Source of the DNA: a virus
Virus record (IMG/VR): IMGVR_UViG_3300004805_000034
Coordinates: 1-22,836 of that record
DNA: 22,836 nucleotides
Strand: one strand, 5' to 3'
A program made the translations under genes and the position numbers. Every line of letters begins with the position of its first letter. Within the stretch, counting starts at the first letter, position 1. Below, in pieces: positions 3,412-12,342 of the stretch. The notes under the pieces were generated by a model, which saw only the letters and a list, made by a program, of their open reading frames with translations, was not told where the DNA came from and did no database searches.

Positions 3412-3414
3412 TCT

Positions 3415-3445
3415 TTGACGCAATTGACCAAGCGGGTTATATAAG
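3415..3445 (+). promoter_or_regulatory. Candidate sigma70-type promoter for the capsid genes
   Basis: In the 79-nt gap between portal and scaffold, TTGACG (3415-3420; 5 of 6 to the -35 consensus) is followed after 17 nt by TATATA (3438-3443). The overlapping TATAAG (3440-3445; 5 of 6 to the -10 consensus) has a 19-nt spacer. The scaffold start lies about 45 nt downstream. It is one of only two gaps of more than 50 nt in the window; the other holds the terminator that would end this unit. Prediction from sequence only. Confidence 0.55.
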
Positions 3446-3490
3446 CGCAATCGTACCGGCGCGTTTCACCGGGCAAATCCGTGGGTAACC

Positions 3491-4387
3491 ATGTCAGAAC
3501 CAAGAGAGACAACGCAAGTTGTCACAAGCGAAAATCAAGCCGAATTTTTTGCACAAAAACTGGGCTTAGCTCCCGAAGAAACGACTGAGGCTGCTGAAGA
3601 AGCAGAGCCAATCGAATCCGAGGTTGAGAATGAGCCAGATGCGGAAGATGAAGCACCAGCTACAGAAAACGAAGGTAAACCGAGCAAGCTAAAGGCGCGG
3701 TTTTCAGAGCTAACTAAGCAGCGCGAACAGGCCAGGGCTGATGCTCAGCGTGAACGCGAAGCCAGGGAAGCGCTGGAAGCACGGCTACAGGCTTTGGAGC
3801 AAGGACAGGCGCCGAAACAGGCTCCTGTTGCTGACGCCAAGCCTACGCCGGATCAATTCACGGATGCTTTTGAATACGCAGAAGCATTGGCTGAATATAG
3901 CGCTGAGAGAGCACTCAAAGAACGGGATCGGCAGGATCAGGAAAGGAAAGCGCAAGAGCAACAGGCGAAAGTCGTGCAGACTTGGACCAAACGGCTTGAA
4001 GCGGCAAAGGCTGAGATTGACGATTTTGATGAGATGGTGGCGTCAAGCGATGTTGTTGTGCCGAATCACATTCGGGACGCGATATTAGAATCAGACGTGG
4101 GACCACAAATCCTGTATCACCTTGCATCAAATCAAGATCAGGCCAGGTCTTTTAATGATTTGACGCCGGCTCAAGCGTTGAGAGCTATTGGCAAGCTGGA
4201 AGCAAAGTTTGAGAAATCTGAAACTAGCAAGCCTGAGAGATCTGTGGTAAAAAGCAAGGCACCAGCCCCGATCAACCCTATCAAGTCAAGCAACGCAACC
4301 GCTGACAATCTCGTGAATTCCAAAGGTGAATTTCATGGGACATACGCAGCATGGAAAGCGGCTAGACAAGCCGGCAAGATTAGGTAA
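3491..4387 (+). CDS. Capsid scaffolding protein
   Basis: Predicted internal scaffold that directs coat protein assembly into a prohead and then leaves. Position directly upstream of the coat gene is the main evidence, backed by composition: a strongly acidic N-terminus (about residues 29-62), long charged helical stretches likely to form coiled coils (about 63-105 and 132-178), no cysteine, and a short basic C-terminus (AAWKAARQAGKIR), which recalls the basic coat-binding helix-turn-helix end of P22 scaffold. At 298 aa it is close to the 303 aa of P22 gp8. ATG at 3491 has only a weak GTGGG upstream. Scaffolds diverge rapidly, so identity rests on context more than similarity. Confidence 0.85.
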   Translation: MSEPRETTQVVTSENQAEFFAQKLGLAPEETTEAAEEAEPIESEVENEPDAEDEAPATENEGKPSKLKARFSELTKQREQARADAQREREAREALEARLQALEQGQAPKQAPVADAKPTPDQFTDAFEYAEALAEYSAERALKERDRQDQERKAQEQQAKVVQTWTKRLEAAKAEIDDFDEMVASSDVVVPNHIRDAILESDVGPQILYHLASNQDQARSFNDLTPAQALRAIGKLEAKFEKSETSKPERSVVKSKAPAPINPIKSSNATADNLVNSKGEFHGTYAAWKAARQAGKIR

Positions 4388-4397
4388 ACAGATTAAT

Positions 4398-4410
4398 GGA
4401 TCTTTGATCC
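4398..4410 (+). other. Small hairpin just upstream of the coat gene ribosome binding site
   Basis: GGATC (4398-4402), TTT loop, GATCC (4406-4410): a perfect 5-bp inverted repeat ending immediately before the GAAGGA Shine-Dalgarno of the coat gene. It may keep the binding site exposed or mark an mRNA processing site. A stem this short can occur by chance. Confidence 0.3.
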
Positions 4411-4422
4411 GAAGGAAATAAA

Positions 4423-5670
4423 ATGGCTAATACCCTCTTAACGATCAGCAAGATCACCAACGAAGCGTTGATGGTCTTGGAAAACGAACTCACCTTTACC
4501 AGCGAAGTTAACCGTGAATACGACGATCAATTCGCCGTTGCCGGTGCCAAGATTGGTGCAACTGTTAACGTCCGTAAACCAGCACGGTTTATCGGTGTTA
4601 CCGGACCAAACCTGTCGGTTGAAGACTTTAACGAGACTTCAATTCCTGTCACGTTGAATACCCAATTCCACGTTGATACCCAATTCAGCACCGCTGATTT
4701 GGCTCTGTCGATGGATATGTTCAGCGACCGTTTGATCAAACCGGCTGTTGCAACGATTGCCAACAAGATCGACCGTGACGGTCTGGTGCTTGCCAAGAAC
4801 AACGTGGCAAACATCGTCGGCACCGCTGGCGTTCCTCCTACCTCGCTGCTGACCTACCTGACCGGCCAGGCTTATCTGGACTCAGAAGGTGCGCCACGCG
4901 ACGGTCGTCGTGCTTGTATCGTCGAGCCATTCACGTCTGCAACCATCGTCGATTCTTTGAAAGGGCTGTTTATGCCTAATCAGAAGATCTCCGAGCAGTA
5001 CGAAAAGGGCATGATGGGCACGGATAGCGCTGGTATGCGCTGGAAGATGGATCAGAACGTGGTCTCGCAGACGTTTGGTTCCTACGCTTCTGCAACGCTG
5101 GCAACCAACACGGCGACCTTCACCGGCTCGCTCACGTCTGGTTGGGCATCGTCATCGACGATCACCATCTCGGCAACGTCGGCAGCAGCTCCAATCCAGC
5201 AGGGCGACGTGATCACCATCGCTAACGTCTACGCTGTTAACCCACAGAACCGCCAGCCTTACGGCACAAACCGTCTGCGTAACTTCGTTGTTACCAGCGC
5301 TGTGACCATCAGCTCGGGTGGCTCGGCATCGGTCACGGTTAGCCCCGCGATCATCACCGCTGGTCAATTCCAGAACGTCTACGTTTCGGCTACCAGCAGC
5401 TCGGCTGTTGTGACTCCGTTTAATAACACCGGCACCGTTAGCCCACAAAACATCATCCTGCACCGCAATGCAGAGACGTTGGCTTGTGCTGACCTTGAGC
5501 TGCCAATGGGCGTTGTGTTTGCTGGACGTGCATCTGACAAGGATCTGGGTCTTTCGATCCGCGTCGTTCGTCAGTACACGATTAACAATGACTCAATCCC
5601 GTGCCGTCTTGACGTGCTCTATGGTTGGGCGATGCTCTACCCTGAGCTGGCTTGCCGCGTTGCAGCTTAA
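4423..5670 (+). CDS. Major capsid (coat) protein, P22 gp5-like, HK97 fold
   Basis: Main shell protein of the icosahedral head. The N-terminal region is typical of the P22 coat family: an NTLLT start, then VNREYDDQFA (29-38) and GATVNVRKPARF (45-56), followed by an helix-rich segment of the HK97-like core. A Ser/Thr-rich, beta-predicted segment spans about residues 218-340 and precedes a conserved C-terminal core; P22 coat likewise carries an extra insertion domain. At 415 aa it is near the 430 aa of P22 coat. The start has the strongest ribosome binding site around (GAAGGA, 6 nt before ATG), as expected for the most abundant virion protein. G+C looks higher than in the fibre block (38 of 60 bases are G or C in 5101-5160). 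Confidence 0.95.
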   Translation: MANTLLTISKITNEALMVLENELTFTSEVNREYDDQFAVAGAKIGATVNVRKPARFIGVTGPNLSVEDFNETSIPVTLNTQFHVDTQFSTADLALSMDMFSDRLIKPAVATIANKIDRDGLVLAKNNVANIVGTAGVPPTSLLTYLTGQAYLDSEGAPRDGRRACIVEPFTSATIVDSLKGLFMPNQKISEQYEKGMMGTDSAGMRWKMDQNVVSQTFGSYASATLATNTATFTGSLTSGWASSSTITISATSAAAPIQQGDVITIANVYAVNPQNRQPYGTNRLRNFVVTSAVTISSGGSASVTVSPAIITAGQFQNVYVSATSSSAVVTPFNNTGTVSPQNIILHRNAETLACADLELPMGVVFAGRASDKDLGLSIRVVRQYTINNDSIPCRLDVLYGWAMLYPELACRVAA

Positions 5671-5695
5671 TCAATAACGATTTAAGGAAATAATC

Positions 5696-6127
5696 ATGGC
5701 GAATCCGGGACCCGCAACTACCGTAGCCAATCATCCACAGGTGCTCGGTTCAAACCAGGCTCTGCGTTTGTTGGCATCGGCTCAGTCAGTCAGCTTGGCA
5801 GTAACGGGTGACACCGTTCTGCCGATCCTTAACACGGGGCGTTACAGCGTCTCCAACGTGGTCGTGACGAATGCCTCGACCGATCTGTCGGCGTCAACCG
5901 TCCCTTTTGCTGGCGTGTTTCCCGCACCTGGCGCAAGCGGCACCGCAATCGTTTCGAATGCGACGTTGAATGCTTTGACCAGCTCCTCGGTTGTGTCGCA
6001 GCGAACGATCAACTCTACGGCAGCTCAGACAGGCCAGAACGTATACTTTAACGTCGGCACGGCAGCGTCTTATGCTGCTACCGTTGACGTTTTTGTCTAC
6101 GGTTACGATCTCACGTTCCTGCCTTAA
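5696..6127 (+). CDS. Putative head decoration or minor capsid protein (143 aa)
   Basis: Small Ala/Ser/Thr/Val-rich protein with alternating hydrophobic residues, hence beta-rich, with no signal peptide or membrane segment. Two stretches stand out: YSVSNVVVTNAS (50-61) and the C-terminal VDVFVYGYDLTFLP (130-143). It starts 25 nt after the coat stop with a good AAGGA site and is the last gene before the terminator at 6146-6180, so it is probably made with coat protein in large amounts. Small beta proteins in this place are often head decoration or head-fibre proteins in other phages, which is the basis of the call. I do not recognise a named family. Confidence 0.55.
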   Translation: MANPGPATTVANHPQVLGSNQALRLLASAQSVSLAVTGDTVLPILNTGRYSVSNVVVTNASTDLSASTVPFAGVFPAPGASGTAIVSNATLNALTSSSVVSQRTINSTAAQTGQNVYFNVGTAASYAATVDVFVYGYDLTFLP

Positions 6128-6145
6128 TCAAGGCAAATGAGAAGG

Positions 6146-6180
6146 AAAGCCGATCCCATAAAGGTCGGCTTTTTCTCTTT
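6146..6180 (+). terminator. Rho-independent terminator after the capsid unit
   Basis: AAAGCCGATC (6146-6155) pairs with GGTCGGCTTT (6163-6172): a 10-bp stem with one G-U pair and a 7-nt loop (CCATAAA), followed by a T-rich tract (TTCTCTTTAATTTT). A second small inverted repeat GCCTT/AAGGC (6121-6125 and 6130-6134) overlaps the preceding stop codon. No matching T-tract exists on the other side, so it should act on + strand transcripts only. Read-through would set the level of fibre and tail gene expression. Confidence 0.9.
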
Positions 6181-6196
6181 AATTTTGGAATAGCAA

Positions 6197-7687
6197 ATGT
6201 CGCAGACCAATCAGGTAAATACGGTCACGTCGCAGAACGTGGTCCCAGTTGGCGCTACTTACGACGCTAACGGTAATTTCATTACTTTGGTTGGCGCTGG
6301 TGGCCAGCCAATTAGCTCGGGCGCAGGGTCGACCGATAGCTATGTCTTAATGTCTGCATCGTCAACGCTGCCAAATGAGCGCGTTTTGACAGCCGGCACA
6401 AATATCACGATTACCGATGGTGGCGCGGGTGGCACGGTCACCATTGCGTCGACTGCTGGTGGCGTTTCAAACGTCGCAACCGGGACGGGTCTGACGGGTG
6501 GTCCGATCACCACGACCGGCACGATCTCGCTGGCAAACACAGCGGTCACCGCAGGAACCTATGGCACGTCCATTGGTATCCCTCAGATTACCGTTGACGC
6601 TCAAGGCCGGATCACTGCTGCCACCGTCATTGCAACGACCAGCAACAGTTACCAGGGGACATGGAATGCTTCGACTAATAGTCCGACGCTTACATCAAGC
6701 GTTGGAACGCTCGGGTATTACTACGTTGTCTCGACTGCTGGCTCAACTAACCTAAACGGCATCAGCACGTGGGCAGTTGGCGATTGGGCGGTTTACAACG
6801 GATCAGCCTGGCAAAAGGTCGCTGCGAGCGGTTCTAGCGCGTTCAGCACGCTTACCGTGACTGGTTTGACGGGTTATATGTACGCCAACGGCGCAAGCGC
6901 TGTGACGGCATCCACGACTATCCCTAATGCTGGACTGACCAACAGCTCGGTCACAATCGGATCGACCAGCGTGGCGCTCGGCGCTACGGCAACGACCGTT
7001 GCCGGACTGACGCTGACCAGCCCGACGCTTACAACGCCGGCTCTTGGCACTCCTGCCAGCGCCAATCTATCTAATGCAACAAATCTGCCCTTAACGAGTG
7101 GTGTCTCGGGTCAATTGCCAATTGCGAATGGCGGGACGGGGGCAACGTCAGCCATTTCAGCGTTCAATGCTCTTGCTCCATCGCAAACCGGCAATAGCGG
7201 GTATTACCTAACAACCAACGGCACCAACGCTTCTTGGGCGGCAGTTTCTGGTGGTGGCGGCGGCACGGTTACATCGGTTGGATTGTCTGCGCCAGGCTTC
7301 TTATCGGTTAGCGGCACTCCTGTCACGTCATCTGGTACGTTGACACTTGGATACTCTGGCACGGCGCTTCCGGTGGCCAATGGCGGTACAGGCCAAATTA
7401 CGTACACTGATGGTCAATTGTTGATTGGCAACAGCTCAGGCAACACTTTAACTAAGTCAACGCTGACTGCTGGTTCAAACATCACCATTACGAATGGCAA
7501 CGGCTCAATTACAATTGCGTCGACGGGTGGTGGATCTTCGGGCCCCGTAGCCGAATCTTACCAAACAATCAGTTCAAATTACTCTGTAACGGCAGGTTCT
7601 AACGCATTTAGCGTTGGGCCTGTCACCGTGGCAACGGGTGTTGCCGTAACCGTCCCTACGGGCCAAGTTTGGCTCATCGCTGCTTAA
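6197..7687 (+). CDS. Tail fibre-like repeat protein (496 aa)
   Basis: Elongated Gly/Ser/Thr/Ala-rich beta protein typical of phage tail fibres. Recognisable repeats: LTAGTNITITDGG (64-76) recurs as LTAGSNITITNGN (423-435); PIANGGTGA (308-316) recurs as PVANGGTGQ (392-400); ATGTGLTGGPIT (94-105) recurs in the fibre at 9767. A distinct aromatic module at 150-209 (YQGTWNAST, GYYYVVSTAGST, VGDWAVYNGSAWQKV) is a type I know from many phage fibres and may be a small binding domain. The C-terminal 50 residues (from VAESYQ, 451) form a different beta-strand segment ending in VWLIAA. First gene after the terminator, with a weak TTGGAA site before ATG. It probably forms trimeric fibres; receptor unknown. 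Confidence 0.75.
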   Translation: MSQTNQVNTVTSQNVVPVGATYDANGNFITLVGAGGQPISSGAGSTDSYVLMSASSTLPNERVLTAGTNITITDGGAGGTVTIASTAGGVSNVATGTGLTGGPITTTGTISLANTAVTAGTYGTSIGIPQITVDAQGRITAATVIATTSNSYQGTWNASTNSPTLTSSVGTLGYYYVVSTAGSTNLNGISTWAVGDWAVYNGSAWQKVAASGSSAFSTLTVTGLTGYMYANGASAVTASTTIPNAGLTNSSVTIGSTSVALGATATTVAGLTLTSPTLTTPALGTPASANLSNATNLPLTSGVSGQLPIANGGTGATSAISAFNALAPSQTGNSGYYLTTNGTNASWAAVSGGGGGTVTSVGLSAPGFLSVSGTPVTSSGTLTLGYSGTALPVANGGTGQITYTDGQLLIGNSSGNTLTKSTLTAGSNITITNGNGSITIASTGGGSSGPVAESYQTISSNYSVTAGSNAFSVGPVTVATGVAVTVPTGQVWLIAA

Positions 7688-7697
7688 AGGAACAATT

Positions 7698-8126
7698 ATG
7701 AGCGCCATCAAACTTCAAGGCAATTCTAGCGGGGCTGGTACTTCAGTTCTACAGTCTGCCAATACCGCAAGCACACTTACCCAGACACTCCCATCTACGG
7801 ATGCGGTGACACTTGGTTATCTCAACGCTCCCCCGGTTGGGACCAAAACGGCCAGCTACACGTTGGCGGTTGGCGACGTTGGCAAGTATGTCCAACTCGG
7901 CGCTTCGGGTGCGATTGTGATCCCAACGTCGACTTTCAGCGACGGTGATTTGATTTCAATTTACAACAACACCGCATCGACGGCGACGATTACCTGTTCT
8001 GCGCCAACGGCTTACATTGCTGGGTCGAACACAACCGTAACGTCGGTAACGCTTGCGATTCGCGGTGTTTGTACCGTCCTGTTTAGTTCTGCCACCACTT
8101 GCGTTCTGACGGGCAACGTGTCATGA
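7698..8126 (+). CDS. Short tail fibre protein with C-terminal cap domain (142 aa)
   Basis: Residues 5-45 (IKLQGNSSGAGT, TLTQTLPSTDAVTLGYLNAP) form a short fibre lead-in. Residues 48-142 form a beta domain (YTLAVGDVGKYV, GDLISIYNNT, final CVLTGNVS) that also closes the fibre at 9767-10894 and is widespread as a fibre C-terminal cap in phages. A good AAAGGA site precedes ATG by 5 nt. The stop overlaps the next start as ATGA, so translation of the adhesin at 8123 should depend on ribosomes finishing this gene. It probably forms the stem or attachment piece to which that adhesin belongs. Confidence 0.65.
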   Translation: MSAIKLQGNSSGAGTSVLQSANTASTLTQTLPSTDAVTLGYLNAPPVGTKTASYTLAVGDVGKYVQLGASGAIVIPTSTFSDGDLISIYNNTASTATITCSAPTAYIAGSNTTVTSVTLAIRGVCTVLFSSATTCVLTGNVS

Positions 8127-8130
8127 GTGG
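8118..8130 (+). promoter_or_regulatory. Stop/start junction of adhesin cassette 1
   Basis: GTGTCATGAGTGG contains the ATGA overlap ending the fibre cap gene and starting the glycine-rich adhesin. The same 13 bases with one difference occur at 10886-10898 at the equivalent point of a second cassette. Likely a translational coupling site; it could also serve as a homologous exchange point. Confidence 0.5.
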
Positions 8131-9079
8131 GATTATGCTTGCTATGTTGGGGAGAAAACCTTCCCCAACAACACTTAATGTTGACTTCCTTGTTGTTGCT
8201 GGTGCTGGAGGATCTGCTGGAACCGGAAGCGGGTCGGCTGGTGGATCGGGTGCTGGTGGAGCGGGTGGTTACAGAACCTCTTACGGATCAATTTCTGGTG
8301 GCGGCGGCGCTGTTGAATCACCAGTTTTAGTTACATTAGGAACCGCGTACACAATCACAATAGGCGCAGGTGGTGCGGCGGGAATTGCTGTTGGCAATGG
8401 TTCTCAAGGAAATCAATCAATATTTTCAACCATTACTTCAACAGGAGGCGGTGGCGGCGGTGCTGCTAGTGGTGTTGGAGGCTCCGGCGGTTCTGGAGGT
8501 GGAGGAAACGGAGGGGCTGTAGGAAATAATGGTGGTGCAGGAACCGCCAATCAGGGATACGCTGGCGGTGCTGGTTCCGTAACAAGTGACGAAGGTGGCG
8601 GCGGCGGCGGTGGCGGCGCGGTTGGAACTGCCGGTGTAGGCAGCGTGTCTGGTGGTAATGGTGGTGTTGGTGTTATAAGCACAATTATTACAAGCGCGGT
8701 TGCAACAACATTGGTTGTTGGCGAAGTTAACTCTAGTAATGTGTACTTCTCAGGCGGCGGCGGAGGCGGTGGGAACAACGAGGATGGCGGCGGGACTGGC
8801 GGATTGGGCGGCGGTGCAACTCGGAGAAAAACCACTCAAGGTCCGGGTATTGCTGGAACCGCTAACACCGGCGGTGGGGCTAGTGGTGGATATGCAATTT
8901 CTGCCAATCAAACCGGAGCAACCGGCGGTTCGGGAGTAATTATTCTTAGAATACCAACTGGTTACACAGCAACATTTTCTGGTGGGGTTACATCTAGCCT
9001 TTCTACTGCTATTTCTGGATTTAACATCTATGCAGTTAAAGCGACTTCCACAGGATCAGAAACTGTGACGTTCAGCTAA
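8123..9079 (+). CDS. Glycine-rich phage adhesin (polyglycine receptor-binding protein, 318 aa)
   Basis: Predicted receptor-binding protein. After a short lead MSGIMLAMLGRKP, residues 19-29 (NVDFLVVAGAG) open a glycine-rich domain containing runs such as GGGGGG (108-113), GGGGGGGG (158-165) and GGGGGGG (211-217), spaced by variable loops. The domain ends with GGSGVIILRIPTG (268-280) and a C-terminal strand segment ending in ETVTFS. This opening and closing pattern is the known glycine-rich domain of aquatic phage tail proteins, and polyglycine sandwiches are established in T-even-type gp38 adhesins. ATG 8123 (ATGA overlap) is preferred over TTG 8099 because it fits coupling and matches the start of the paralogous cassette. 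Codon use appears more AT-rich than in the capsid genes, compatible with separate acquisition. Host specificity is probably in the loops between glycine runs. Confidence 0.8.
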   Translation: MSGIMLAMLGRKPSPTTLNVDFLVVAGAGGSAGTGSGSAGGSGAGGAGGYRTSYGSISGGGGAVESPVLVTLGTAYTITIGAGGAAGIAVGNGSQGNQSIFSTITSTGGGGGGAASGVGGSGGSGGGGNGGAVGNNGGAGTANQGYAGGAGSVTSDEGGGGGGGGAVGTAGVGSVSGGNGGVGVISTIITSAVATTLVVGEVNSSNVYFSGGGGGGGNNEDGGGTGGLGGGATRRKTTQGPGIAGTANTGGGASGGYAISANQTGATGGSGVIILRIPTGYTATFSGGVTSSLSTAISGFNIYAVKATSTGSETVTFS

Positions 9080-9088
9080 GGAATACAA

Positions 9089-9445
9089 ATGGCACATTTT
9101 GCAAAACTTGACAAAAACAATTTTGTTGTATTTGTTACTGTTGGTCGCGACGAAGACAAAGAAGATGAATTGACTTCTAGGACTGGCGATGTTTATAAGC
9201 AAACCAGTTACAACACAATTGGTGGTGTTCACGTCCTTGGCGGCACACCATTTCGCAAAAATTACGCAGGTATCGGGTACAAGTACGACCCCCAACGCGA
9301 CGCTTTTATTCCTCCGCAACCTTTCCTGAGCTGGACGCTCAACGAAAAAACGTGCTTATGGGATGCTCCTGTTGCATATCCATCGGACGGCGAGCGGTAT
9401 CAATGGAACGAGGAAACAACTTCTTGGGTGTTGATCAATGTATAA
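9089..9445 (+). CDS. Conserved aquatic-phage tail-associated protein, unknown function (118 aa)
   Basis: The start MAHFAKLDKNN, the centre FRKNYAGIGYKYDPQRDAF (about 76-94) and the end PQPFLSWTL, YPSDGERYQWNEETTSW match a small protein I know from marine cyanophages and related aquatic phages, usually near tail or fibre genes. No enzymatic motif, signal peptide or membrane segment is seen; many aromatic residues and short strands suggest a compact beta protein. AAGGA lies 8 nt before ATG. It directly follows the polyglycine adhesin and shares its AT-rich base use (22 of 60 bases are G or C in 9121-9180), so the two may have moved together. The function is not established. Confidence 0.6.
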   Translation: MAHFAKLDKNNFVVFVTVGRDEDKEDELTSRTGDVYKQTSYNTIGGVHVLGGTPFRKNYAGIGYKYDPQRDAFIPPQPFLSWTLNEKTCLWDAPVAYPSDGERYQWNEETTSWVLINV

Positions 9446-9767
9446 CTCACCATTTACGCCGTTTGGCCCGACCTACCTTGTTGGCACGTCTCCGGTGCAG
9501 GTTTCGACCAACAACAACGACAACCCTACAAGCTATCGGGTCCGCAATACCAGCGCTTCGGCGCAGTATCTTGCATGGGTAGCACCGGCTCCTGGCAATG
9601 CAACCCCAACGATTACGGTTGCAGCTCCGACAGCCGGAAGCCCGAAGCGGCAGACGCTTGGATTCTTGCCTAGCTCAGTTGAGGTCTTTGGCGGCATTCC
9701 TGCAAACGCTTGGTTCCAAGCTGACGCAGTTGGAGCCTTTGAAATTACTCCAGGCGAAGGACTCTAA
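9438..9767 (+). CDS. Small beta-rich virion-associated protein, unknown function (109 aa)
   Basis: The ORF overlaps the previous gene by 8 nt and the next gene by 1 nt (TAATG), which supports it as real. The sequence is Pro/Ala/Thr-rich with probable beta strands, including SYRVRNTSASAQYLAWVAP (32-50), SSVEVFGGIPANAWFQA (79-95) and a terminal FEITPGEGL. Proteins with this general pattern, ending in a PGEGL-like motif, occur in many phage structural regions without assigned function. It may be a small adaptor or decoration protein of the fibre complex. Confidence 0.5.
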   Translation: MYNSPFTPFGPTYLVGTSPVQVSTNNNDNPTSYRVRNTSASAQYLAWVAPAPGNATPTITVAAPTAGSPKRQTLGFLPSSVEVFGGIPANAWFQADAVGAFEITPGEGL

Positions 9768-10894
9768 TGGCTCTCAGGGCAATTGCTGGTGGTGGTGGTG
9801 GCGGCGGCAGCGGCACGGTCACGACCGTCAGCGTTGCTTCTGCCAATGGCCTTGCTGGAACGGTTGCAAATGCAACGACGTCACCATCTATCACGCTTAG
9901 CACGACCGTCACAGGCGTTCTGAAAGGCGATGGCACGACCGTCAGCGCTGCCGTAGCAAATACGGACTACCTGACACCACCGAGCGGCTCAGCACTGCTT
10001 AAAGCGGGTGGTGGTGGCGCTCTTGCCAATGCGTCAGCAGGTACGGATTTCCAAGCTCCGATCAGTTTGACAACAGTCGGCACAAGTGGAGCGGCGACGT
10101 TTGCCGCTAATGTGCTTAACATTCCAAATTACGCTGCTGGCGCTGGTACTGGCACGGTCACCAGCGCATCGGTTGTTAGCGCAAACGGTTTTGCTGGTAC
10201 GGTTGCATCGGCTACCACGACGCCAGCAATCACGCTTACGACCAGCATCAGCGGAATGCTCAAGGGCAGCGGTGGAGCGCTTGCGGCGGCGACTGCCAAT
10301 ACGGACTTTCAATCGCCGATCTCGCTGACAACGGTCGGGTCAACTGGCGCAGCGACGTTTGCTTCAAACGTGCTTAACATTCCCAACTACAGCGTGGCTG
10401 GAACGGTCACCAGCGTAGCGACGGGAACAGGGCTGACTGGTGGGCCAATCACCGGCTCCGGCACGATTGCAATTGATTCAACGGTGGTTACGCTGACCGG
10501 CACTCAAACGCTGACCAACAAGACCGTAACGGCTTTAGCGAGCGCGTCAACGGTTCAAGATAGCGATGGCAATAGCTACGCTTTTGGCTATCGGACAATG
10601 CCTCAGTCGGCCAATACGAGCGGCACGCTGATTTTGTCTGATAACGCCAAGCATTACTACGTCACTGGCAGCGTTACGGTTCCGCTCAATGCAACGGTTG
10701 GGTTCGACATTGGCACAGTGATCACAATTGTCAGCAACAACACGGCGCTCAGCATCATTCCGGCGTCTGGCGTCACGCTTCAGCTCGCCAACTCTAGTTC
10801 TGCCGGCACTCGATCATTGGCCAGCAACGGTATTGCGACGATGCTTAAGGTCGCTGTCAATACGTGGTATGTCAGCGGGACCGGCGTGACATGA
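9767..10894 (+). CDS. Tail fibre protein with tandem repeats and C-terminal cap domain (375 aa)
   Basis: Starts in a TAATG overlap. After a polyglycine stretch (GGGGGGG, residues 8-14), two diverged repeats follow: residues 16-122 and 129-208. Both contain SANG(L/F)AGTVA, (V/M)LKG.G, ANTD(Y/F), a PISLTTVG(T/S) segment and NVLNIPNY; the first has an extra piece (about 70-95). Residues 217-236 repeat the ATGTGLTGGPIT motif of the fibre at 6197. Residues 277-375 are a beta cap (from MPQSANTSG, with GTVITIVSNN and final WYVSGTGVT), related to the cap of the 142-aa protein at 7698. The stop overlaps the start of the propeller gene as ATGA. Probably the constant shaft of a second adhesin cassette. 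Confidence 0.75.
   Translation: MALRAIAGGGGGGGSGTVTTVSVASANGLAGTVANATTSPSITLSTTVTGVLKGDGTTVSAAVANTDYLTPPSGSALLKAGGGGALANASAGTDFQAPISLTTVGTSGAATFAANVLNIPNYAAGAGTGTVTSASVVSANGFAGTVASATTTPAITLTTSISGMLKGSGGALAAATANTDFQSPISLTTVGSTGAATFASNVLNIPNYSVAGTVTSVATGTGLTGGPITGSGTIAIDSTVVTLTGTQTLTNKTVTALASASTVQDSDGNSYAFGYRTMPQSANTSGTLILSDNAKHYYVTGSVTVPLNATVGFDIGTVITIVSNNTALSIIPASGVTLQLANSSSAGTRSLASNGIATMLKVAVNTWYVSGTGVT
9812..10390 (+). repeat. Diverged tandem repeat inside a fibre gene
   Basis: Two units, 9812-10132 and 10151-10390, encode related peptides, each ending in NVLNIPNY. Identity is clear at protein level and partial at DNA level, for example GGCACGGTCAC begins both. The first unit carries an extra segment that itself resembles part of the unit (LLKAGGGGALANASAGTDF against MLKGSGGALAAATANTDF), so the array is about two and a half units. 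Fibre length may vary by gain or loss of units. Confidence 0.7.
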
Positions 10895-10898
10895 GTGG
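10886..10898 (+). promoter_or_regulatory. Stop/start junction of adhesin cassette 2
   Basis: GTGACATGAGTGG contains the ATGA overlap between the fibre cap and the propeller gene. It differs from the junction at 8118-8130 at one position only. Confidence 0.5.
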
Positions 10899-11973
10899 TT
10901 TTCTGGGGATGATGTTCCCTAGCGGCGGTTCTGGTGGTTTGCCTCCGGTTACGCCGTCGACCTACATCGCATTTGGTGGAACAACGGCAGCAAAGCGCAT
11001 CTCGGTTTATGGTTGGGATTCTGCAAGTGGATTCGGGTCACTTTTCACGACGCCAAGCATTCCAAACAACATCAGCCAGGTTTCATTTGTCCGTGACAAC
11101 TCTGTTTTTTCAGCGTCATTTGTTGCCGCTCCTTATTTCAGCGTCTGGCAATGGTCTGGTCTTGGTTTTGGGACGCAATATTCCAATCCTGGCAGTTCTC
11201 TAAGCCCATCAACCGGAGGTCCGGCAGGGTTTACTTGGACCAAGACGGTTGACGCGATTCTGACGTCAAACGCAACGGCAGTATCGTATCCGCAAGCATG
11301 GGCTTGGAGCCAATCCAGCGGATTTGGATCTAAGTATTCAAACGGCTCAGCGATTAACTCGGTTGGTGCAACGACTGGCATCACGCTAAACGGTGACAAT
11401 ACTCAGGTTGCATTCAGTCAAAACGCAGGAACGGCAATTTCGCTTTATCCATGGTCATCATCGACCGGGTTTGGCACTCGATACTCAAATCCGGTGACAA
11501 TTCCTCCGTTTGGCAACAATCCTGGCAGCGTATCGTTCAACCAAACAACGAATGACGTTGCGATTGGCAGCACCGCATCACCGTTTATTGCTGCTTATCC
11601 GGTAACGTCGGCGGGTTTTGGCGTTAAATATTCCAACCCATCATCAGCAATTGGTGGCACGGTTTATTCGGTTAGATTCTCTCCTACTGGTGGTCAGCTT
11701 GCTGTTGGAAACAACTCAACGCCGGCAGCGCTAAAGATCTATCAATGGGGTGCTGGTTTCGGTTCTTTATATTCTGGACCGTCAATAAGCACGACAGTCA
11801 ATTCTGCTGACTGGTCTAGCACGGGATCAGAAATTGCCGGCGCAACATCAGCAGTTATTCCATACGTCAGAGCATATCCTTGGACGTCTGGTGGAGTTGG
11901 GTCTCAATATACAAACCCATCAACAACGCCAGGCGTTCCCAATTGTGTATCATTTAGCAATCAGACAAGGTAA
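10891..11973 (+). CDS. Seven-repeat beta-propeller protein, putative adhesin (360 aa)
   Basis: Seven copies of a motif of the form W..(2-4)..GFG..Y(S/T)NP, with GFG or its variant at about residues 47, 92, 144, 193, 242, 289 and 335, a period of 45-52. Examples are YPWSSSTGFGTRYSNP and YQWGAGFGSLYSGP. Strand segments such as VYSVRFSPTGGQLAVG (258-273) between motifs look like WD40/YVTN-type blades, so a closed seven-bladed propeller is predicted. The lead MSGFLGMMFPSGGSGG resembles the start of the glycine-rich adhesin. ATG 10891 (ATGA overlap) is chosen over TTG 10864. No signal peptide or catalytic motif is visible. It is placed behind a fibre cap, so a receptor-binding head is likely; the ligand is unknown. 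Confidence 0.7.
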   Translation: MSGFLGMMFPSGGSGGLPPVTPSTYIAFGGTTAAKRISVYGWDSASGFGSLFTTPSIPNNISQVSFVRDNSVFSASFVAAPYFSVWQWSGLGFGTQYSNPGSSLSPSTGGPAGFTWTKTVDAILTSNATAVSYPQAWAWSQSSGFGSKYSNGSAINSVGATTGITLNGDNTQVAFSQNAGTAISLYPWSSSTGFGTRYSNPVTIPPFGNNPGSVSFNQTTNDVAIGSTASPFIAAYPVTSAGFGVKYSNPSSAIGGTVYSVRFSPTGGQLAVGNNSTPAALKIYQWGAGFGSLYSGPSISTTVNSADWSSTGSEIAGATSAVIPYVRAYPWTSGGVGSQYTNPSTTPGVPNCVSFSNQTR

Positions 11974-11976
11974 ATC

Positions 11977-12342
11977 ATGATCACCGATCAAGAAAAGCAA
12001 GCCGGCTTAGTCATGAATGCTTTCCACCGTGAAATGGAAATCTACGGCTACCAGCTCAACATTGACAACTACTCGGCAATGCTGGACGCGCTTCCGGCTG
12101 GCGAATGGCCAGCAGACTTGGAAGCATTTCGAACGATTAAGACCGAAGATTTGCCGCACGATCTAAGCGATGGTCAAGTGGCTCAGATCAACGATTATCA
12201 ATATCGTGATCGTCTGCGCGTTCTGGTTCGCACCGAAAAGGCTGAACAGAATAAGTCGATTCGGGTGCGTGACGTGCTGAAAGCGCAGATTGGATCTAAC
12301 TATGATGCACTGGTTGCAGCTTACAAAATCAGCCAAGGTTAA
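11977..12342 (+). CDS. Hypothetical protein, possible fibre assembly factor (121 aa)
   Basis: Not recognised. Unlike its neighbours it is charged and mostly helical in character, with no repeats and no Gly/Ser bias (for example EMEIYGYQLNIDNYSAMLDA near 19-38). The C-terminal half is basic and helical (DRLRVLVRTEKAEQNKSIRVRDVLKAQIG). It starts 3 nt after the propeller gene stop with AAGG upstream and ends 2 nt before the next fibre gene. A small soluble helical protein directly after an adhesin gene fits the usual place of fibre assembly chaperones, but no sequence motif supports this. Confidence 0.55.
   Translation: MITDQEKQAGLVMNAFHREMEIYGYQLNIDNYSAMLDALPAGEWPADLEAFRTIKTEDLPHDLSDGQVAQINDYQYRDRLRVLVRTEKAEQNKSIRVRDVLKAQIGSNYDALVAAYKISQG

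Follow-up and report, generated by a model that had tools for sequence, protein, structure and literature searches.

A conserved pseudoknot leader before the scaffold gene of a P22-type phage capsid unit: a candidate translational operator

The window analyzed here is a stretch of 22,836 nucleotides (nt) from the IMG/VR virus record IMGVR_UViG_3300004805_000034 (positions 1 to 22,836). It contains a capsid gene unit, comprising the genes for a scaffolding protein, a P22-type coat protein and a probable cement protein of 143 amino acids (aa), set between two long gaps. The leader at about 3449-3493, between a candidate promoter and the scaffold start, folds, by covariation among relatives, as a compact H-type RNA pseudoknot (helix S1 of 3 base pairs (bp), a 2-nt UA loop and helix S2 of 6 bp) followed by a hairpin around the start codon. 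Our results suggest that the three genes form a late unit of their own and that translation of the scaffold gene is controlled by the knot and hairpin as an operator, probably under feedback from a product of the unit; we give this interpretation a probability of about 0.6. The features are as follows.

3415-3443, + strand: candidate sigma-70-type promoter TTGACG-17-TATATA (TTGACG 3415-3420, 17-nt spacer, TATATA 3438-3443), kept in relatives at the same place
3449-3473, + strand: H-type RNA pseudoknot, from S1 covariation and compensatory changes on the coat tree; S1 5' arm AATCG (3449-3453), loop TA (3454-3455), S2 5' arm CCGGCG (3456-3461), S1 3' arm CGTTT (3462-3466), S2 3' arm CACCGG (3467-3472), conserved G (3473)
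3480-3493, + strand: initiation hairpin CGUGG-GUAA-CCAUG enclosing the Shine-Dalgarno region and start codon, from fold and compensatory changes
3491-4387, + strand: scaffolding protein, 298 aa (phrog_8865 head scaffolding protein, expect value (E) 2.2e-40)
4423-5670, + strand: P22-type coat protein, 415 aa (PF11651, E 2.8e-35; phrog_283, E 1e-70)
5696-6127, + strand: probable cement (decoration) protein, 143 aa, from the predicted fold
6144-6174, + strand: intrinsic terminator hairpin with T tract, from fold energy, conservation and covariation

The pseudoknot and the initiation hairpin

The comparison covered 80 IMG/VR relatives, named phage records and 8 genome contigs, from which both gaps were extracted and whose loci were labeled with L-numbers. 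In several scans more than 600 candidates answered the coat queries and the best 80 were kept, which makes all clade sizes lower bounds. There were 292 loci with a scaffold start, 280 of them with a hairpin, which gave 212 distinct leaders; in 171 of these the UA is present and the loop is 4 nt or longer, and 134 are distinct in the knot region. The alignment of the window's wider clade (A1) holds 55 of its 61 distinct leaders, L034 and L080 being omitted for an uncertain start and L085, L086, L088 and L092 for another type of hairpin.

Among these 55 leaders, the two helices were paired in 94.0% of cells compared with 76.9% after shuffling, both sides had changed in 105 cells against 27.9, and covariation reached 0.527 against 0.183, with slid controls at or below 0.136. 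In the set of 134 leaders, the three core pairs of S1 were formed in 91.2% of cells (53.5% shuffled) and covaried at 0.860 (0.204 shuffled; slid controls at most 0.185). Covariation over the whole knot was 0.592 against 0.178 for shuffles. Three contiguous S1 pairs were present in 128 of the 171 leaders, whereas free shuffles gave 25.6 and shuffles within groups gave a mean of 47.0 and a maximum of 62. To remove the effect of shared ancestry, a coat-protein tree was built for 167 of the 171 leaders, the other four having short or split coat frames, and changes were placed on it by parsimony. The three S1 pairs changed jointly on 22, 23 and 24 branches, of which 20, 22 and 17 were compensatory, while twelve control pairs of non-partners changed jointly on 3-10 branches and kept a pair on 0-2. 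The pairs of S2 were compensated on 10, 18, 35, 16 and 34 branches, the fifth pair being excepted as its 3'-arm A is unchanged; the start of loci after L094 was chosen by hairpin score, so that the S2 counts in alignment A2 lean towards S2, and S1 was not used in that choice. A fourth S1 pair was considered and rejected, with 1 compensatory branch compared with 17-22 for the first three. At the level of sequence comparison, an H-type pseudoknot with each interleaved helix backed by compensatory changes is therefore established among the relatives.

The arms of S1, in which bases ahead of the UA pair with the first hairpin's loop, also pair in distant phages, as AACCG/CGGUU in Thalassomonas phage BA3, AACAC/GUGUU in L064 and AAAGG/CCUUU in L083, and, as judged by eye outside the UA set, as AAGCC/GGCUU in L169. 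The first loop is 2 nt and, given a 3-bp S1, a loop of 1-5 nt follows the S1 3' arm; such lengths would allow both helices to form at once. The A in the S2 3' arm is near-invariant (165 of 171) with U or C as its partner; tertiary or protein contacts are most readily expected at this A, at the UA loop and at the G that follows the knot.

The second element of the leader is the initiation hairpin, which in the window has a folding energy of -5.4 kcal/mol (z-score -2.07) and holds the whole AUG. Compensatory changes were found in 3 of its 4 counted pairs, and a GNRA loop (GUAA, GAAA or GCAA) is present in 31 of 55 leaders; other clades have an initiation hairpin of different sequence. The start codon keeps a fixed position relative to the knot, inside this hairpin, and in the window, as in L002 with its identical leader, S2 ends 18 nt before the AUG. 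The knot leader offers an easy way of locating the correct scaffold start codon, which in some records seems to be set too far upstream. In three Vibrio phages the annotated start of the scaffold gene lies within the knot (L381:997, L383:995 and L100:1499), and in each a downstream ATG with a Shine-Dalgarno sequence fits the relatives better. A switch between a conserved 5' CCUU, acting as anti-Shine-Dalgarno sequence, and the Shine-Dalgarno sequence was also considered; it was rejected because visual inspection showed it in no more than part of one clade.

The distribution of the leader was followed with a covariance model, R1, trained on the 55 leaders of the window's clade and scanned against 100 sources (811 kb). 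It gave 68 matches at E of 0.01 or below, one per source and all at the scaffold leader, including 15 outside the training clade; the leader of phage BA3 matched at 1e-8. Seven weaker matches were listed up to E 1, five of them at scaffold-leader positions (L118, L111, L100, L135 and L092) and two elsewhere (L300 at 0.06 and L051 at 0.97). At E 0.01 there was no match in the other 32 of the 100 sources, including P22, Rhodoferax phage P26218, PAE2, the EBPR podovirus, phiAX1 and the Paraburkholderia prophages. Five further Vibrio and Shewanella phages all carry the knot pattern before the scaffold gene; four nearly repeat known sequences, and VvAW1 adds a new one, AAGC-UA-CCCAUG-GCUU-CAUGGG. 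A strict pattern requiring S1, run on all loci with a known scaffold start, matched 173 of 291 leaders and also 45 places elsewhere; it misses the window's own clade because of a U·U mismatch in S1.

Rfam at its curated scores matched nothing in the window or in 16 relatives, and at a permissive threshold no family matched the leaders L104 and L323, the one match being far below its cut-off. The phage records examined annotate no feature at the knot leader, and nothing relevant to a structured scaffold leader was found in the literature searched. The leader represents a new, previously uncatalogued family of structured leader RNA. In the Paraburkholderia prophages (L085, L086 and L088) and Xanthomonas phage PBR31 (L092), a terminator-like hairpin replaces the knot and the initiation hairpin is retained as UGGA-NNNN-UCCA-UG. 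There the terminator-like hairpin stands directly before the initiation hairpin with no recognizable promoter between them, and it is possibly an attenuator. Several phages with a P22-type coat have neither knot nor initiation hairpin.

Transcription signals around the capsid genes

An earlier reading of the sequence alone had proposed that the two longest gaps bracket exactly the scaffold, coat and 143-aa genes, and both the gap lengths and the family matches agree. The gaps measure 79 nt (3412-3490) and 69 nt (6128-6196), the next longest of the 23 junctions is 35 nt, and exactly these three genes lie between them. The upstream neighbor is a P22-type portal gene, and the promoter candidate follows directly 3' of its stop codon.

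The promoter proposed in that reading is present as TTGACG-17-TATATA and the pair is kept among relatives, although within the window it does not rise above chance. A consensus scan of the window found 11 promoter-like sites compared with 14.2 expected and did not list it, and a sigma-70 matrix ranked it 26th on the + strand, while 19 further sites on the - strand reached its score or exceeded it. The idea that the promoter speaks for itself was therefore dropped, and its support comes from comparison. In 37 of 69 distinct upstream regions of relatives a promoter-like pair exceeded the 95th percentile of shuffles, and the median score was 9.7 against 5.1 for shuffled sequence, mostly with a 17-nt spacer of variable letters. 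The usual form in the window's clade is TTGACA-17-TATATA at the same place with a different spacer, of which TTGACG is a weaker version. Among 161 distinct upstream regions, -10-like hexamers are concentrated 5-6 nt before the first base of the knot. A -10 score above 4 ending 3-8 nt before the knot was found in 88 of the 161, compared with 24 in a control stretch and 26 in shuffles; by group, the counts were 13/13 (BA3), 5/5 (Vibrio-type), 34/54 (DSL), 24/48 (main), 12/33 (PBR31-type), 0/7 (PAE2-type) and 0/1 (EBPR-type). This spacing would place the start of transcription at the knot. L035, L083, L084, L087 and L089 retain the leader although no promoter is recognizable there, a persistence that points to a role at the RNA level; neither the leader nor its persistence was noted in the earlier reading.

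The claim of a strong terminator after the 143-aa gene was borne out. The hairpin at 6144-6174 (-19.0 kcal/mol, z-score -4.23) is the strongest fold preceding a T run in the window, and a terminator score of at least 20 was reached in all 55 distinct downstream regions that were readable, compared with 20 of 1100 shuffles. In the relatives it likewise follows the 143-aa gene. Its covariation was 0.426 against 0.234 for shuffles, with compensatory changes, in 44 of 47 extracted sequences; L028, L030 and L090 were left out of this alignment (A3) as anchored on other hairpins, and L079 had no usable anchor. The weakest case was L079, where a gene is inserted and the matched hairpin is not a clean terminator. 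A conserved G+C-rich hairpin followed by a U tract is what characterizes an intrinsic terminator, and the element is interpreted as such. Phage T7 has a terminator after its coat gene. P22 also has a hairpin directly after its capsid genes, annotated in its record as a stem-loop at 6102-6119 and described there as "similar in location to stem-loops in phage HK97 and phage lambda"; unlike these stem-loops, the hairpin of the window comes after a cement gene and has a T tract at its end.

In 27 of 53 distinct downstream regions, the best -10 is TATAAT or TACAAT at 15-17 nt past the 3' arm of the terminator (e.g., L043, L064 and L066), a possible terminator-promoter tandem after the capsid unit in relatives. 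A widespread second promoter was rejected, because only 12 of the 53 exceeded the shuffle limit and the window's clade is without it.

Comparison of both gaps among relatives, the check suggested along with the sequence-only reading, found the promoter pair and the terminator hairpin both kept and the promoter spacer letters variable. Ten loci carry an extra gene between portal and scaffold, which in every case lies upstream of the leader and never between leader and scaffold (L074, first read as one of these, is not a gene insertion). Because the terminator, the promoter pair and the insert positions are kept, the unit is a conserved feature of the group, unlike in P22. These comparisons support scaffold, coat and cement as a transcription unit of their own, and the internal promoter and terminator argue against a single distant late promoter for the capsid genes, as in a P22-like late operon. 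High expression of the capsid genes independent of the rest would follow from such an arrangement. The elements in both gaps, the pseudoknot, the initiation hairpin and their link to scaffold genes are established by comparison among relatives.

A possible translational operator

From this arrangement we infer where the transcript begins and ends, that translation is regulated, by which ligand and in which direction. RNA polymerase would start at the first arm of the knot or a little before it, placing the knot at the 5' end of the mRNA, and would stop at the hairpin that follows the cement gene. The knot and the initiation hairpin would act together as translational operator of the scaffold gene. 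A product of the unit, free scaffold in the first place and coat in the second, would bind or stabilize the knot and hold the initiation hairpin closed, so that scaffold synthesis would fall as unassembled scaffold accumulates. The position of the leader, its coverage of the start codon, its exclusive link to scaffold genes and its persistence without a recognizable promoter favor a translational operator.

The P22 scaffold reportedly represses its own synthesis post-transcriptionally, as found by Casjens and co-workers in 1985, and we know of no RNA target of this autoregulation. P22 resembles the present unit in its homologous gene order, its coat family and its scaffold as the likely regulator. 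A phage precedent for feedback through a leader pseudoknot is gene 32 of T4, in which gp32 binds a pseudoknot in the 5' leader and represses its own translation (PMC3014915; PMC535899). As in T4, the pseudoknot here lies in a phage gene leader upstream of the ribosome-binding site; the gene, the protein and the knot dimensions are different. The start is covered by a structured initiation hairpin in the window and lies in an A+U-rich unstructured tract in T4 gene 32. Scaffold is the first candidate ligand because of the autoregulation reported for P22 and the T4 precedent.

Several observations weigh against this interpretation. S1 of the window consists of G-C, C-G and a U·U mismatch at the third pair, and this third pair is formed in none of the 8 distinct leaders listed from the window's clade. 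In a pseudoknot-free model, the window leader folds no better than shuffles (z-score 0.04). P22 has a 13-nt gap between portal and scaffold, with no promoter and no knot leader, and the knot is absent or unrecognized in Rhodoferax phage P26218, the EBPR podovirus and Acetobacter phage phiAX1.

A more specific version, in which the leader directly senses capsid assembly and free scaffold (or coat) binds the knot and shuts the start-codon hairpin, is tentative, and we would put it somewhat below even odds. If it is true, translation would keep pace with the use of scaffold by procapsids, scaffold autoregulation would have in the knot its missing RNA target, and T4 gene 32 would be joined by a new family of viral autoregulatory pseudoknots. 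The control of the scaffold to coat ratio in phages is an old question, and the knot gives it a testable target in culturable phages, since it is carried by phages recorded from Thalassomonas, Vibrio and Shewanella, in addition to many environmental contigs.

The knot might instead be a 5'-end stabilizer that blocks 5' access and prolongs the life of an abundant capsid mRNA, and not a regulated operator. The -10 elements that put the transcript start at the knot fit this explanation, and the corresponding hairpin at the 3' end would shield the mRNA there. However, a plain hairpin would suffice for this purpose, and an S1 of exactly 3 bp, with a UA loop and an A in the S2 3' arm that are both near-invariant, resembles a binding site; moreover, the leader is retained without a recognizable promoter and a second hairpin covers the start codon. 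We consider such a stabilizer unlikely. It is slightly less likely still that the knot binds a host factor or a small molecule, in the manner of a ribosomal protein site or a riboswitch, and couples capsid synthesis to the state of the host. Riboswitches use compact pseudoknots next to Shine-Dalgarno sites, and the leader has conserved unpaired letters. Ribosomal protein S15 uses a compact pseudoknot next to the Shine-Dalgarno sequence, and in its rpsO operator a pseudoknot at the translation start serves for feedback (PMC3014915). S15 is a bacterial ribosomal protein, however, and the present leader has no sequence relation to rpsO and no match to an Rfam family, while in the sources searched the knot was found only before scaffold genes. 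That the gap motifs are sites in DNA (overlapping regulator operators, or a packaging or recombination signal) is very improbable: palindromes lie across the -10 in some relatives, as judged by eye, but the partners in two interleaved helices change together and pass through several pair types, at a position fixed relative to a start codon that the initiation hairpin includes.

The cement gene and other observations

The 143-aa product had been called a decoration protein in the sequence-only reading. A sequence-based family search gave it no family match, and only its predicted fold, which is cement-like, speaks for the name. Its structure model (pLDDT, the predicted local distance difference test, 85) best matched the cement proteins of KHP30, KHP40, GP4 and Pam1 with Z of 8.2-8.8, the top four of 982 aligned chains, with unrelated rows reaching Z 8.1. 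The cement proteins of GP4 and Pam1 are immunoglobulin-like, and GP4, KHP30 and Pam1 use trimeric cement proteins, as described in PMC9698820. The model thus indicates that the product is likely a cement or decoration protein.

Eight of the 10 small proteins inserted between portal and scaffold (L019, L035, L044, L054, L069, L070, L079 and L082) share a similar N-terminal tag by eye, of the form M-x-x-V-T-S-x-N-K-x-E-F-D, ahead of differing C-terminal parts. Scaffold N-termini (VVTSENxAEF) and a portal C-terminus (ITSQNKTEID) resemble this tag, which is possibly a shared capsid-targeting peptide. The coat frame is interrupted by insertions of about 220-250 nt in L089 (4327-4571) and L090 (3770-4024), at different sites near residues 90 and 109; known introns were rejected as their identity, since Rfam gave no match. 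In many relatives (e.g., L027, L036, L043 and L064) a strong G+C-rich hairpin lies between the coat and cement genes and could lower the cement relative to the coat; it is absent from the window's clade. Further downstream, a series of Ala/Ser/Thr/Gly-rich, tail-fibre-like genes occupies positions 6197-12342 of the window; as judged by eye, these genes share a repeated segment of the type TGLTGGPITxxGTI.

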